Source of the DNA: Synechococcus sp. KORDI-52
GTDB lineage: Bacteria; Cyanobacteriota; Cyanobacteriia; PCC-6307; Cyanobiaceae
NCBI RefSeq assembly: GCF_000737595.1
Contig: NZ_CP006271.1
Coordinates: 1,736,001-1,800,000 of the forward strand
DNA length: 64,000 nt
Direction: 5' to 3'
The translations under genes were made by a program, and so were the position numbers. Shown here in pieces: positions 30,691 through 56,686 of this stretch. Position 1 is the first letter of the stretch; the number at the start of each line of letters is the position of its first letter. The notes beneath the pieces are model-generated. The model had not been told where the DNA came from and did no database searches. It was given only the letters and a program-made list of their open reading frames with translations.

Positions 30691-32721
30691 TTGAACAATT
30701 CCGTCCAACCCGGAGATACCGTCGCGGTTGTTCTCAAGGGTTCTCCTCTTCTCGGCCGTCTTCTGTCCATCAAGGGCAGCAAGGCGGTTCTTTCTTTTGG
30801 TGGTCAACGTCGTGACCAGGGCCTTCCCCTGCGCGACCTGATTGCCATTGATCCCGAGCATCGCTTCGTTAACAGTGACCTTCCTGCACCTGAGCAGGTG
30901 CAGGACAGCGCTCCATCAGCACGGGCCGTCGTGGAGGCTTGGCAGCTGCTGGAAACGGATCAACCGGGGGGATTGACTCGACTGAGCCTCTGCGAGCTGG
31001 GCGAGTTGGTGTTGACCCCGTTCAACCTCGCTGGGTTGGCAGCGCTGTGGGCCTGGCTGCATAGCAACCAACAGTTGTTCCGCTGGCGTCGTGACCGTTT
31101 GATCCAGCCACTCCCCCGCGAGGAGAGGGCCAGCCTGCGGCGCCAACGCCGAGCTGAGCGGCAGGAGCAACAGCATGAACGACGACAGCTCGCCTTACTG
31201 CGGGCTGAGCGAGCCCTCAACGACGATGAACGCCTGGAGCTGGACCCTGTTTGGGACGAGCGCTTCAGCCACTGGATTCAGTTGCTGAAAGACAATCCAG
31301 CTGCGGTGGGTTCCGACCTTGATCTCCAGCAGTGGTCGACAGCGTTGTCGATGGGATCGGATGCCGCCGATCTAAGGCAGTGGTTGATCGTGCGTGGGTT
31401 GCTCGATCCCAATGAGCCCATTTGCTTGAGGGGCAGCGTCTGGTCTCGTCGTTTTGCCTCTGATCTGGTGGAGGAAGCGAATCGTCTTGTTGCTCTTTCG
31501 AATGAAGAGCTGCCTGGGGATGAGCAGCGCATCGACCTCACTCACCTGACCACCTACAGCCTGGACGATGCGGGCACCCGAGAAATTGATGACGCGCTCT
31601 CGCTGGAGCGTCGTGATGGCATGGATTGGATCTGGATCCACATCGCTGATCCAAACCGTCTGATCGACATTGACTCCCCCCTTGATCAGGAAGCTAGACG
31701 TCGGGCTACCAGTTTGTATCTGGCGGAAGGTGTGATGCCCATGCTCCCTCTGGAGCTGGCGGCTGGCCCCCTGAGCCTGCGGGCAGGGCATCGCTGTGCA
31801 GCCCTGAGTGTGGCCGTTCGCCTCGATGACGATGGTGCTGTGGCGGAACAACGGATTGCTCGCAGCTGGATCCGACCTCGCTATGGCCTCACGTACGGCG
31901 ATGGCGACGAGCTGATCGAACTGGCTCCCCCAGGGGATGAGGCCTTGTCGGATCTCTCGGGACTCTTGATGTTGCGCATGCGCTGGCGCCGCTCCAAAGG
32001 AGCCGTGATGTTTGACCGGCCTGAAGGACGCTTCCGCCGCAGCGATGGGGCCTTGACACTGCAGGTGATTGACCCGTCACCCTCCCGCCTGATGGTGAGT
32101 GAAGCGATGTTGCTGATGGGGGCTGTTGTGGCCAGCTTTGGGCAAAAGCACAGCCTGCCGTTGCCCTTCCGCAGTCAGCCTGCGGCGGAGCTTCCCTCCA
32201 GCGATGAACTCGATCGAATCCCCGAGGGACCAGCCCGTGATGCGGCGATCAAGCGCTGCCTGAGCCGTGGCGTGCAAGGCACGCGGGCCCTGCCCCATTT
32301 CAGTCTTGGCCTTGAGGCTTATGTGCAGGCAACGTCACCGATTCGACGCTATGCCGATCTCATCGCCCACCGGCAGATCATTGCCCAGCTGTCTGCTCTT
32401 GCACCGATGGATGAAGAGCGTCTTGGGGAGGTTATTGACGATCTCGATGATCCATTGCGCCAATCCATTCAAATCAGCCGAGAGGATCAGCGTCACTGGC
32501 AGCAGGTGTGGTTCGCCGAGCATCAGAGCACCGTCTGGACGGCCGTGTTCCTGCGCTGGTTGCGCCCGCAAGATCGCTTGGCCTTGGTTCATGTGAGCGA
32601 CCTGGCCATGGATCTGGTGGGTTGTGTTTCTGCAGACGACCCTGCCCCTGGCGACGTTCTTGAACTCAAGGTGGGTCGTGCTGACCCGGTACGCGGTGAG
32701 CTTCAGCTTCAGTTGGCTTGA
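30691..32721 (+). CDS. RNase II/R family 3'-5' exoribonuclease (RNB domain)
   Basis: A 676-residue processive exoribonuclease that degrades or trims RNA. The RNB active site is intact: SLDDAGTREIDDALSLE (about residues 290-306) holds the metal-binding aspartates, and the later ATSPIRRYADLIAHRQI motif has the RNA-contacting arginines. The N-terminal part is an OB-like domain and a helical segment rich in Arg/Gln; a short S1-like C-terminus follows. The start is a TTG 10 bp after rpsR. Its last 13 bp overlap the converging FAD oxidoreductase gene. A second, catalytically altered RNB protein lies at 53753-56074. Confidence 0.9.
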   Translation: MNNSVQPGDTVAVVLKGSPLLGRLLSIKGSKAVLSFGGQRRDQGLPLRDLIAIDPEHRFVNSDLPAPEQVQDSAPSARAVVEAWQLLETDQPGGLTRLSLCELGELVLTPFNLAGLAALWAWLHSNQQLFRWRRDRLIQPLPREERASLRRQRRAERQEQQHERRQLALLRAERALNDDERLELDPVWDERFSHWIQLLKDNPAAVGSDLDLQQWSTALSMGSDAADLRQWLIVRGLLDPNEPICLRGSVWSRRFASDLVEEANRLVALSNEELPGDEQRIDLTHLTTYSLDDAGTREIDDALSLERRDGMDWIWIHIADPNRLIDIDSPLDQEARRRATSLYLAEGVMPMLPLELAAGPLSLRAGHRCAALSVAVRLDDDGAVAEQRIARSWIRPRYGLTYGDGDELIELAPPGDEALSDLSGLLMLRMRWRRSKGAVMFDRPEGRFRRSDGALTLQVIDPSPSRLMVSEAMLLMGAVVASFGQKHSLPLPFRSQPAAELPSSDELDRIPEGPARDAAIKRCLSRGVQGTRALPHFSLGLEAYVQATSPIRRYADLIAHRQIIAQLSALAPMDEERLGEVIDDLDDPLRQSIQISREDQRHWQQVWFAEHQSTVWTAVFLRWLRPQDRLALVHVSDLAMDLVGCVSADDPAPGDVLELKVGRADPVRGELQLQLA

Positions 32722-52632: not shown

Positions 52633-53007
52633 ATGAGTCGAGCGACGCCGCAATGGACCTGCATCAAACACTGTGGAGCCTGTTGCCGACTCGCTCCGGA
52701 GGAACGCGCTGATGCCCTGGCGGCCTTGAGCGAAGACCAACAACGCACGTACCTGGCCATGGTTGGACCAGACGGCTGGTGCATCCACTACGACACGGGC
52801 AGTCAGCGCTGCACGATTTATGAGGAGCGTCCGGATTTCTGTCGCGTCAGTGGCTTAGGTCGTCTGTTTGATGTTCCCGATGATGAGTTCGATGCCTTCG
52901 CCATCGCCTGTTGCCATCAGCAGATTCGCAGCACCTATGGCGGTCGAAGTGGTGTGATGCGTAGGTTCAAGCGCGCTCAGACCGCAGGAGGTTCTGTTGA
53001 GCAGTGA
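52633..53007 (+). CDS. YkgJ-type cysteine cluster protein
   Basis: A 124-residue protein of the YkgJ/CxxCxxCC family, which is thought to bind zinc or iron. The cysteine cluster is CIKHCGACC near residue 10. Other cysteines are in DGWCIHYD, RCTIYEERPDFCRVSG and ACCHQQI. The RCTIYEERPDFCR block is the family's second motif. Function unknown. The start of the first GDT1 gene lies inside its last codons, so it is part of the same transcript. Confidence 0.88.
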   Translation: MSRATPQWTCIKHCGACCRLAPEERADALAALSEDQQRTYLAMVGPDGWCIHYDTGSQRCTIYEERPDFCRVSGLGRLFDVPDDEFDAFAIACCHQQIRSTYGGRSGVMRRFKRAQTAGGSVEQ

Positions 53008-53329
53008 GCCAACCAGCAGCGAGTCACGCAGCTTTGCTGCCGTTCTCTTCAGCACATTCACCACGGTGTTTGTGGCTGAGCTGGGCGACAAAACACAGTT
53101 GGCGACGTTGTTGCTCTCCGCCCAGTCCGGCTCACCGGTTCTGGTGTTTGTCGGTGCCGCGCTGGCTTTGATTTCCTCCAGCCTTGTCGGGGTTCTGGTG
53201 GGTCAATGGTTGGCCAGAACTCTTCCGCCTGAACGGCTGGAACTCATGGCGGGAGTGCTGATGGTGGCCCTTGGCGTCTGGCTGGGCCTTCAGGCCGCAC
53301 GTTCTCTATGGATCACGTCCGGAAGCTGA
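52997..53329 (+). CDS. TMEM165/GDT1 half-transporter, first copy
   Basis: A 110-residue membrane protein with three helices and the family motif E-L-G-D-K-T (VFVAELGDKTQLATLL), which binds cation in GDT1 proteins. It is half the length of the two-repeat manganese exporters. Translation starts at a TTG preceded 6 bp upstream by AGGAGG (52986-52991), which decides the start. It is followed at once by a second half-sized copy, so the two probably form a hetero-oligomer exporting Mn2+ or exchanging cations for H+. Confidence 0.88.
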   Translation: MSSEPTSSESRSFAAVLFSTFTTVFVAELGDKTQLATLLLSAQSGSPVLVFVGAALALISSSLVGVLVGQWLARTLPPERLELMAGVLMVALGVWLGLQAARSLWITSGS

Positions 53330-53331
53330 CG

Positions 53332-53649
53332 ATGGATTTTCCTCTTCTAATTTCCACGTTCTTGACTGTGTTCCTGGCTGAACTCGGTGACAAGACACAA
53401 CTCGCGACTGTTGCCATCAGTGGGACTTCCAATCGACCCCTGGCTGTTTTTCTCGGATCCTCGTCAGCGTTGGTTCTTGCCAGCTTGCTGGGAGCCTTCG
53501 CGGGAGGATCTGTCGCCACGGTGATTCCCAGCGACCTTCTTCAGTTAGTGGCCTCCTTTGGTTTTCTCGTGATCGGTGGTCGTCTTCTGGTCCCCATCTT
53601 CAGCAAGGCTGAACAAGCGACAGATGGAGATCAGACTCCTGAGCTTTAA
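53332..53649 (+). CDS. TMEM165/GDT1 half-transporter, second copy
   Basis: A 105-residue membrane protein with the same ELGDKT motif (FLAELGDKTQLATVAI) and three helices. Sequence outside the motif differs clearly from the first copy, as expected for subunits with opposite topology. The ATG at 53332 is 2 bp after the first copy's stop; an earlier in-frame ATG at 53308 would overlap it. In related cyanobacteria such split pairs have been described as hemi manganese exporters. Confidence 0.88.
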   Translation: MDFPLLISTFLTVFLAELGDKTQLATVAISGTSNRPLAVFLGSSSALVLASLLGAFAGGSVATVIPSDLLQLVASFGFLVIGGRLLVPIFSKAEQATDGDQTPEL

Positions 53650-53752: not shown

Positions 53753-56074
53753 ATGAAATTCTCGGTTGCCGATCTGCTGGATCAGCTCTCCTCTGAGCAA
53801 CCCTCCCAGGTGGATCAACTGGCCAAGATCCTGAAGCTCAGCAACAAGTCGGACAAAGCCTCGCTTGATCTCGCTGTTTCATCACTGGTCAAAATCGGTG
53901 TGGTCGAACAGTCCAACGAGGGTGGACTCACTCGACCCACTAAGAGTGCTCTGATTGACGCGCGACTGAGATGCAGCAGCAAAGGCTTCTGCTTCGCCAT
54001 ACCCGAGGACGGCGGTGAGGACATTTACATCCGCGACCATCAGCTCAACCATGCCTGGCATGGTGATCGCGTTCTCGTGCGAGTAACCCGAGAAGGCGGT
54101 CGTCGCCGTTCTCCCGAAGGTGGCGTTCAGTGCATCCTTGAACGGGCCACCCGGTCACTCCTGGCACAGGTTGAGCAACAAAGCGAGCAGTTGCTGGCAG
54201 CCCCACTTGACGACAGGATTCTGGCCGGGATCAAACTGCCTCCCGAGGACTCCCAACATCTGCCGGGCGAAACGGCAGCAAGCGTTGTTGAGGTACGCAT
54301 TGACCGCTATCCGGTGGCCCAGCACGCCGCCGCCGGACATGTCGTGCGTTCACTGCCACTCAACGGAGGTCCCGCTGCTGATCGGGATCTGCTGCTCACC
54401 AAGGCGGGACTCCAGGACCGTGCAGCGGCCCCCCGTAGTTCCGGTAAAACGCCCACGACCAGGGGTCGGGTCGATCTGACGGCACAACCAAGCCTGCTGC
54501 TCAAGGGTTGGAAGCAAGAGGATGCACCTGGGTTGCCTGCCGTGCATGTTGAAGCCAAGGATGGCGGTTGTCGTCTCTGGGTCCATGTGCCCAGCGTGGG
54601 CGAACGGATCGGTTTGGGCAGCAGCCTCGATGCCTGCCTGCGCGACCGCGGTGAAGCCCTCTGCCTCGGTGAAGTCTGGCAACCCCTGCTGACACCTGCC
54701 CTCAACAAAGCGACAACGTTTTCACCCGGCACGGAGGCAGATGCCGTCACTGTTCGTTTGGACATCGCAGCCAATGGTGAGCTCATCGACTGGGAGTTCA
54801 TGCTGAGCTCGGTTCGTCCCGTCGCTGATGTGAGCGCCGATCAGTTGATCGCCCTTGCGGAACGCAAACCAAAGGCGCGCAGCATTCCAACGGCACTAAA
54901 ACCCATCAAAGACCAGCTCGGCCAACTGGAAACCCTGCGGTTTTGCAGCACCCTGCTGCTGGAGCACGAGCGCAGCAGCGGGGCTGTGCAACTCGACCTC
55001 TGTCCTCCCCAGCTGGAGGCACTTGGGGACCTCCGCAGCGCGGATCCCTCCGGTCTGCGGCATCGCTGGGTTGATGCCTTCAACCCGGTGGACCCTCATG
55101 CTTTTCTTCAACCTCTGCTGAGGGCTGCCGACCGTGCATGGACGGCGCACAGAATCGATCTTCAACTGCCTGGGATCATCACGCAAACCGATGAACCTGA
55201 TAGCAACCTTCTGACCGATGTGGCGAAGACCGCCATCGCCCTGGATCTCCCCCTTGAACTGGATGACGAGGGTTGTCCGTCCGCCTGCGAACTCAGCCAG
55301 GTTTTTCAAGCCAGCAATCAGCGTCGCGTGCTTGAACAACAGCTCAGCCACGCCCTGCCTCCAATCCAACTGGTGGCATGCCCACAGATGCCCTCTACCG
55401 CAGCTGATTCCGATGCGGAGGAGGCTGTTTCGAGCAGCGCCAACACGTCACTCACGCCTTGGACCTGTGCCACCCAGCACTATTCACACCTGGTGAATCA
55501 ACAGCTGCTCGTTGCCCTGCTGACAGATGGCAAAGACCGCCCGACAGTGCGTCAGAAGAACCGTTTGAAGCTGGGTCTCAAGGGAGCGGGCGCTGATCTG
55601 ACCTGGCCCCTCTTCACGGCAACCCAGGACGAAAAGCTGAATGGCCTGGTGAGCGACCGCATTGTGCATCGACTCAACAGCCGTCGACGTCAGGTTTTAG
55701 AACTTGAGAAGGATCTTCTTTCGATGATCCAGGCCCGATCAGCTCAGCCGTTGATCGGCCAGCCGGTTGAAGGCCGCATCAGTGGTGTGCAGAGCTACGG
55801 CTTCTTCGTTGAAGTTGGCGAAAGTCGTGTTGAAGGACTTGTTCACGTGAGCTCCCTCAACGATGACTGGTACGAATACAGATCCCGCCAGAATCGTTTG
55901 GTCGGACGGAAGAACCGTCAGACCTATCAACTTGGCGACGCCGTTCAGGTGCGCGTCATCAATGTTGATGTGCTGCGCAACCAGATCGACCTTGATGTGA
56001 TTGGCCAGGGATCTGGTGAATCCACAGAGCCTGAATCGTCTGAACCACTGCCCGTTGCCCTCAGCGAGCGCTGA
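53753..56074 (+). CDS. RNB-fold (RNase II/R-like) protein with altered active site
   Basis: A 773-residue protein with RNase R-like layout: winged-helix N-terminus (residues 1-70), cold-shock-like domain (LRCSSKGFCFAIPEDGG), RNB domain, and a good C-terminal S1 domain (VEGRISGVQSYGFFVEVGE). In the RNB domain the usual DxxGxxDxDDA metal-binding segment is replaced (region around residues 248-268, KQEDAPGLPAVHVEA) although the next block (CRLWVHVPSVGERI) aligns. The SPIRRY RNA-contact motif reads CATQHY. It therefore looks like a catalytically dead relative that may still bind RNA. The intact paralogue is at 30691-32721. A structured leader precedes it. Confidence 0.8.
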   Translation: MKFSVADLLDQLSSEQPSQVDQLAKILKLSNKSDKASLDLAVSSLVKIGVVEQSNEGGLTRPTKSALIDARLRCSSKGFCFAIPEDGGEDIYIRDHQLNHAWHGDRVLVRVTREGGRRRSPEGGVQCILERATRSLLAQVEQQSEQLLAAPLDDRILAGIKLPPEDSQHLPGETAASVVEVRIDRYPVAQHAAAGHVVRSLPLNGGPAADRDLLLTKAGLQDRAAAPRSSGKTPTTRGRVDLTAQPSLLLKGWKQEDAPGLPAVHVEAKDGGCRLWVHVPSVGERIGLGSSLDACLRDRGEALCLGEVWQPLLTPALNKATTFSPGTEADAVTVRLDIAANGELIDWEFMLSSVRPVADVSADQLIALAERKPKARSIPTALKPIKDQLGQLETLRFCSTLLLEHERSSGAVQLDLCPPQLEALGDLRSADPSGLRHRWVDAFNPVDPHAFLQPLLRAADRAWTAHRIDLQLPGIITQTDEPDSNLLTDVAKTAIALDLPLELDDEGCPSACELSQVFQASNQRRVLEQQLSHALPPIQLVACPQMPSTAADSDAEEAVSSSANTSLTPWTCATQHYSHLVNQQLLVALLTDGKDRPTVRQKNRLKLGLKGAGADLTWPLFTATQDEKLNGLVSDRIVHRLNSRRRQVLELEKDLLSMIQARSAQPLIGQPVEGRISGVQSYGFFVEVGESRVEGLVHVSSLNDDWYEYRSRQNRLVGRKNRQTYQLGDAVQVRVINVDVLRNQIDLDVIGQGSGESTEPESSEPLPVALSER

Positions 56075-56077
56075 TTG

Positions 56078-56686
56078 ATGCATCCATACGTTTTGGCCGT
56101 CACCGGTGCATCGGCCCAACCCCTCGCCGAGCGTGCCCTTCAGTTGCTGTTGCTGCGAGGACGCTCAGTGCATCTTGTGCTGAGCCACGGCGCCCATGAG
56201 GTCTTTCGCGCGGAACAGGGCTTGTCCATCCCCGTGGATCCTCTGAAGCAACGGGAGTTCTGGAGAGCCAGGCTTGCGGTGGAGAGCGGCGATCTGACCT
56301 GTCATCGCTGGAATGATCAAGCCGCCTGCATCGCAAGTGGGAGCTACAAAACCAGGGCGATGGTCATCGTTCCCTGCAGCATGGGAACCGTTGGGCGGAT
56401 CCATGCCGGCATTGCTGCTGATCTGATTGAACGCTGCGCTGACGTACACCTGAAGGAGCGGCGCCCTTTGGTGGTCGCTCCTCGGGAGATGCCCTTCAAC
56501 TTGATTCATCTTCGTAATCTCACCGGTCTGGCGGAAGCAGGCGCCACCATTGCCGCCCCGATTCCTGCTTGGTACACCCGGCCAGAGACACTCCAGGACA
56601 TGGTTGATTTTTTAGTGGTGCGTCTCTTCGATGGGCTGGAAGATGACCTTGCACCACTGAACCGCTGGAGCGGACCTCTGGAATGA
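56078..56686 (+). CDS. ubiX: Flavin prenyltransferase UbiX-like
   Basis: A 202-residue flavoprotein of the UbiX/Pad1 family, which makes prenylated FMN for UbiD decarboxylases; in cyanobacteria this serves plastoquinone synthesis. Motifs are the N-terminal VLAVTGASAQPLAERAL, VIVPCSMGTVGRIHAGIA, LVVAPREMPFNLIHL and IPAWYTRPETLQDMVDFL. The ATG at 56078 is preferred to a TTG just before it. Its stop overlaps the next gene (ATGA). Confidence 0.92.
   Translation: MHPYVLAVTGASAQPLAERALQLLLLRGRSVHLVLSHGAHEVFRAEQGLSIPVDPLKQREFWRARLAVESGDLTCHRWNDQAACIASGSYKTRAMVIVPCSMGTVGRIHAGIAADLIERCADVHLKERRPLVVAPREMPFNLIHLRNLTGLAEAGATIAAPIPAWYTRPETLQDMVDFLVVRLFDGLEDDLAPLNRWSGPLE

Follow-up and report, generated by a model that had tools for sequence, protein, structure and literature searches.

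Within the window, by which we mean the whole 64,000-nucleotide stretch of Synechococcus sp. KORDI-52 DNA that was analysed, an open reading frame at positions 53753-56074 of the + strand starts with ATG and encodes a protein of 773 amino acids with 0 internal stops. Pfam placed an OB_RNB domain, hereafter CSD1, at residues 71-126 (71.6 bits; 53963..54130), an RNB domain at residues 239-591 (113.5 bits; 54467..55525) and an S1 RNA-binding domain at residues 668-748 (50.1 bits; 55754..55996), all read from the + strand as are the other features described below. The match to CSD2 was weak (34.9 bits), its best stretch (residues 89-130) overlapping CSD1. The cold-shock, RNB and S1 layout described in a first-pass annotation of this DNA was thereby recovered, and its winged helix was recovered in part. 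No separate winged-helix domain was obtained from Pfam, the support coming from the RNase_R profile and from N-terminal helices of the structure model (residues 5-10, 20-26 and 32-48), which lie in the region occupying the winged-helix position of RNase R (residues 1-65; 53753..53947). RNase_R (TIGR02063) was the best NCBIfam family, aligned from residue 10, with a score of 197.8 bits that remains far below the cut-off of 597.85.

The AlphaFold2 model, calculated from 53 aligned sequences (the window protein and 52 sequences drawn from the 80 named loci), reached a pLDDT of 87.4 and a pTM of 0.87. Comparison with solved structures using Foldseek and VIA-align yielded RNase R as the best match (8cdu, 5xgu, 7did; Z 33.7-35.0), with RNase II at Z 33.3 and an rmsd of 7.0 (2ix1) and the yeast pseudonuclease Ssd1 at Z 28.8 and 3.7 Å over 602 residues (7am1). 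Ssd1, a non-enzymatic RNA-binding protein of the RNase II family with a fold like that of the 773-residue protein, is fungal and close to Dis3L2 (PMC8934651). The fold match as such is uninformative on activity.

Catalytic site and identity of the protein

We aligned the protein with E. coli RNase II and RNase R, both RNB proteins of the window and 201 loci. D201, D207, D209 and D210 are the metal-binding acids of E. coli RNase II, and Y253 and R500 are further site residues; the letters at all six positions were confirmed in K-12 rnb. The four acids aligned to K251, P259, L261 and P262 within the former metal-binding segment (residues 251-263; 54503..54541), Tyr253 to C304 (54662..54664) and Arg500 to Q575. 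The sequence KQEDAPGL begins at residue 254, and PWTCATQHY (residues 569-577; 55457..55483) replaces the SPIRRY-type motif, with CATQHY starting at residue 572 and C572 falling at the Ser497 position. The mapping at 207-210 is firm, because the two RNB proteins of the window align by eye without gaps between the former DDA motif and the strand that follows it, and that at position 201 is the aligner's placement; metal-site acids were judged by aligned position rather than by distance in the model. All four acids were kept in 14/14 canonical RNB proteins of the same alignment. E. coli RNase R (Rnr), which has the fold and domain order in common with the 773-residue protein (Z 33.7 to 5xgu), likewise has the four acids, the Tyr and the Arg, all of which are replaced here. 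These data bear out the first-pass annotation where it described lost catalytic residues, a missing DxxGxxDxDDA segment and the reading CATQHY, and the comparison with RNase R and RNase II that it had proposed leaves no acid at the four metal positions. Its statement that RNA-contact residues had also been lost holds for the catalytic channel, where the contacts are replaced, but not for CSD1, where R73, K77 and F81 are invariant in 53 aligned rows and position 79 is F or Y.

An RNB search of the KORDI-52 genome (2.57 Mb, one contig) returned two genes, the one at 53753-56074 and a canonical paralogue of the Rnb/RNase II type at 30691..32721. As the annotation had stated, the latter is intact: its motifs (DxxxxxExDD and SPIRRY) and the alignment show the active site to be kept, and it scored 227.8 bits in the RNB search.

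By its sequence, the product of 53753-56074 is Zam, a cyanobacterial RNB pseudo-nuclease named for resistance to acetazolamide and encoded by sll1910 in Synechocystis PCC 6803 and by A1543 in PCC 7002 (PMC9145284). The link to the studied Zams is drawn from the shared domain order, the lost RNB site, the spacing of the cysteines and the gene content, the genomes of PCC 6803, PCC 7002 and KORDI-52 alike having a second, canonical Rnb gene, so that the KORDI-52 protein is a presumed ortholog. Two cysteines six residues apart in the CSD1 L12 loop, a Zam trait, are present as C74 and C80 of the CSSKGFC loop (53972..53992), equivalent to C73/C79 of PCC 7002 Zam. In the model they lie at the facing ends of the strands that border this loop (residues 67-74 and 80-84), a predicted placement that would suit a disulfide.

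A tree of 62 rows, comprising 48 Zam proteins (25 from the KORDI-52 lineage defined below) and 14 canonical RNB proteins, united 48/48 Zam rows in one group with an SH-aLRT support of 99, apart from 14/14 canonical proteins. This was a quick tree with an arbitrary root and many rows of unusual composition, in which the Zam rows had been picked by motif and similarity; the Anabaena, Synechocystis and PCC 7002 Zams are outside both the tree and the alignments. Within the Zams, the 25 lineage proteins formed one group (support 100) on a stem of 1.42 changes per column, which is not special to Zam since the canonical Rnb rows of the lineage also sit on long branches. Taken together, we consider it highly probable that the protein is a Zam ortholog devoid of canonical exonuclease activity. 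The pseudonuclease reading of the first-pass annotation, which did not name Zam, fits the sequence evidence as well as the published Zam work (PMC9145284); it is correct, but it has already been published for the Zam family and is not new, as is the case for the suggested RNase E partnership, already reported for Anabaena Zam in the same source.

Course of the site loss in the KORDI-52 lineage

For comparison across families, a lineage set of 132 rows (121 distinct) was assembled from the window protein, L002-L051 and L113 (own family) and L122-L201, the last being the nearest named loci, that is, the best 80 of 549 relatives, which entered by nearness rather than by confirmed family. The outside set contained 58 rows, one per genome, from the 61 other-family genomes of the class with an RNB match, the remaining three being added later. 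Some rows of either set are partial, and since the rows are related the following counts do not represent independent events.

The four acids occurred together in 0/121 lineage Zams and 0/61 outside Zams. Of the 58 outside rows, 3 had acids at three of the four positions, 26 at two, 28 at one and 1 at none, with Tyr253 kept in 36 and Arg500 in 28. At the key position, that of D209, 49 of these rows have E, 8 have D and 1 has Q, and two of the three added genomes have E, giving an acid in 59/61. In contrast, 0/121 lineage Zams were acidic at 207, 209 or 210, the residues there being mostly P (118), L (111) and P (110), respectively. Cys occupied the Tyr253 position in 109/121, with Tyr in none, and the Ser497 position in 94/121; Arg was left at the 500 position in 1/121, and Glu was found at the aligned 201 position in 28/121. 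The RNB domain of the lineage contains 11 positions that are at least 90% acidic, 0 of them in columns 201, 207, 209 or 210. W253 and W570 (window numbering) were present in 119/121 and 117/121, and C127 (54131..54133) in 121/121 lineage Zams against 0/58 outsiders, which have Leu or Val there. As the replacements at 207-210 are mostly fixed, the site does not appear to have been left to drift but to have been exchanged for a largely fixed new motif. Judged by aligned residues, loss of the site is more complete in the picocyanobacterial Zam than in most other Zams, and this course of the loss is what we add to the published Zam picture.

Lineage-specific fixed residues amounted to 24 sites, 14 of them within the RNB domain; this domain covers 47% of the 750 columns examined, so the fixed sites are not clearly enriched there. 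C304 and C572 occurred together in 84 of the 121 lineage Zams, C304 by itself in 25, C572 by itself in 10 and neither in 2. A C304-C572 disulfide, considered on the basis of co-variation, was rejected for lack of strict coupling. C304 was accompanied by Cys at either 571 or 572 in 103/121, the KORDI-52 protein having Thr at 571. Speculatively, and in our estimate with rather low probability, the pocket rebuilt in picocyanobacteria (Pro/Leu/Pro, new Trp, C304, C571/C572 and C127) may constitute a second site for thiol chemistry or a ligand, in which case this Zam would be a sensor different from that of other cyanobacteria, while the outside Zams with the key acid might retain binding of metal or of RNA 3'-ends. 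Our literature search, whose limited coverage does not prove absence, found no papers or experiments on picocyanobacterial Zam, and the words 'Prochlorococcus', 'WH8102' and 'marine' are absent from the main text of PMC9145284.

The redox cysteines C74 and C80 were each kept in 120/121 lineage Zams and in 58/58 outside Zams, the pair being present in 60/61 of the latter once the added genomes were included. In L167 (Synechococcus RCC307) and in L175, Ser replaces one of the two cysteines. The third added genome encodes a distant Zam, L215 (G302:C1:1865763-1867775), in which the catalytic loop is missing altogether, as are the two CSD1 cysteines; the pair is hence not universal.

Constraint on the gene and proposed function

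Within the genus, strong zam matches without stops were found in 33/34 genomes, two of them partial, the remaining genome being 77% complete. Among 201 genomes sampled from the family, 180 had a match with E < 1e-60, 14 weak matches only and 7 none; restricted to near-complete genomes, a strong match was present in 130/131, the exception being G104, for which the profile search gave just weak partial matches. An apparent reading-frame break, an in-frame TGA in four genomes of one genus, was dismissed, the TGA being the natural stop codon and the gene after it lying in the same frame. The whole-gene dN/dS was 0.072-0.094 in 8/8 comparisons, which covered 8 genus members chosen from the 33, indicating purifying selection. 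By domain, values were 0.010-0.051 for S1, 0.021-0.051 for CSD1, 0.092-0.143 for RNB and highest, 0.150-0.305, for the N-terminal region, these being rough because several domain dS values exceed 1 and one is undefined. Mean column conservation in the lineage was 0.90 for CSD1, 0.82 for S1 and 0.57 for RNB, identifying CSD1 and S1 as the most conserved parts; taken as a whole, the RNB domain is no less conserved in the lineage than among the outside Zams (0.58).

Directly upstream of zam, at 52633-53649, a small cysteine-rich ORF is followed by two overlapping half-size ORFs sharing ELGDKTQLAT, a pair we take to be of the GDT1/UPF0016 type; downstream, a UbiX-type gene (56075-56686) starts at the zam stop codon. 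Gene order was compared for those of the 80 named loci that span at least 9 kb, 59 in all, the gene names GDT1, UbiX and acsF being presumptive. Two separate GDT1-type genes preceded zam in 59/59 loci, and a UbiX-type gene followed it in 58/59, with an estimated start -7 to +23 bases from the zam stop, a close spacing which suggests that the two are co-transcribed. This conserved order, the genome counts and the dN/dS values refute a pseudogene in decay; the lost catalytic site and the low RNase_R profile score would fit such a gene, yet we regard decay as next to inconceivable.

Reportedly, Zhou et al. 2020 described Alr1240 of Anabaena PCC 7120 as an 'RNase II' and partner of RNase E. Alr1240 has been identified as Zam (PMC9145284), and it is reported to bind RNase E and raise its activity (PMC9145284, PMC10989914). 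In PCC 7002 and PCC 6803, Zam forms a redox-responsive disulfide and its deletion changes pigments and acetazolamide tolerance; in PCC 7002 its mobility is redox-responsive, both cysteines are required in vivo, deletion or change of either cysteine alters growth and pigments, and deletion of zam gives a PSI:PSII phenotype (PMC9145284). The purified PCC 7002 protein displayed no nuclease activity, a result for which that article records its authors' own caution, and no RNA binding, in an aggregation-prone preparation with the data not shown there. The two sources conflict, because PMC9145284 treats Zam as inactive and the review PMC10989914 has Alr1240 digesting unstructured RNA.

By sequence, the KORDI-52 protein combines an RNase R fold lacking a canonical metal site with strongly conserved CSD1 and S1 domains and the Zam cysteine pair, and we think it likely that it acts as a modulator of RNA decay that is non-catalytic and binds RNA in a redox-gated manner. 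Zam itself would not digest RNA; CSD1 and S1 would bind RNA, RNase E or both, and this binding would be switched as the C74-C80 disulfide in the CSD1 loop closes in response to redox conditions, coupling RNA turnover to the redox state of photosynthesis. In this view the RNB domain would be kept as a scaffold that positions the two RNA-binding rims. Redox-gating of the binding we hold to be moderately probable, and action through RNase E, by analogy with Anabaena, to have a chance slightly short of even. RNase E would be the likeliest partner because this contact has been described for Anabaena (PMC9145284 and PMC10989914) and because the KORDI-52 genome encodes both RNase E and PNPase. Against the mechanism stand the failure of purified, aggregation-prone PCC 7002 Zam to bind RNA (PMC9145284), the restriction of the reported RNase E contact to Anabaena in both sources, the absence of one cysteine of the pair from L167 and L175 and of both from L215, and the Glu at the aligned 201 position of 28/121 lineage Zams; the degradation of unstructured RNA reported for Alr1240 (PMC10989914) counts against a general loss of activity.

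That report would also suit a divergent yet active exoribonuclease that uses other residues, and since position 209 is acidic in 59/61 outside Zams, these may still have some function involving metal or the 3'-end. For the KORDI-52 lineage we nevertheless judge such an enzyme improbable, as acids are absent from 207, 209 and 210, and Tyr from the 253 position, in 121/121 Zams, Arg500 persists in a single one, and purified PCC 7002 Zam showed no activity, with the caution noted above (PMC9145284). An acid at 209, which most Zams outside the lineage keep, could explain why the reports on activity disagree, and the conflict between PMC9145284 and PMC10989914 becomes testable by comparing Zams with and without this acid.

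A regulator of translation or stability that, in the manner of yeast Ssd1, uses its OB-fold surfaces to bind selected mRNAs and does without RNase E is possible although we lean against it. The fold in common with Ssd1 (7am1, Z 28.8) and the conservation of CSD1 and S1 speak for it, but Ssd1 belongs to fungi and is related to Dis3L2 (PMC8934651), the Anabaena work points to RNase E, and no target RNA of Zam appears in the Zam literature consulted (PMC9145284, PMC10989914). The first-pass annotation had also raised a partnership with the active enzyme. A role for Zam as a pseudoenzyme subunit of the intact Rnb at 30691-32721, or as its regulator, would fit the presence of both RNB genes, the only two, in one genome; it strikes us as quite unlikely, given that the genes lie ~21 kb apart and that E. 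coli RNase II and RNase R act as monomers. The analysis links an odd-looking gene to a regulator that acts on photosynthesis and RNA decay in abundant marine phototrophs and is known but little understood, and the comparison separates Zams that lost the last catalytic acid from Zams that kept it.

Two further observations were made among the aligned loci. A picocyanobacterial zam contig (L172) occurs in a record titled Bifidobacterium breve, which is probably mislabelled or a mixed assembly. Four loci of one cyanobacterial family (L115, L116, L117 and L120) encode a third RNB protein, which has the four acids in the motif DxxxxxDRDD and branches as a separate group in the tree.
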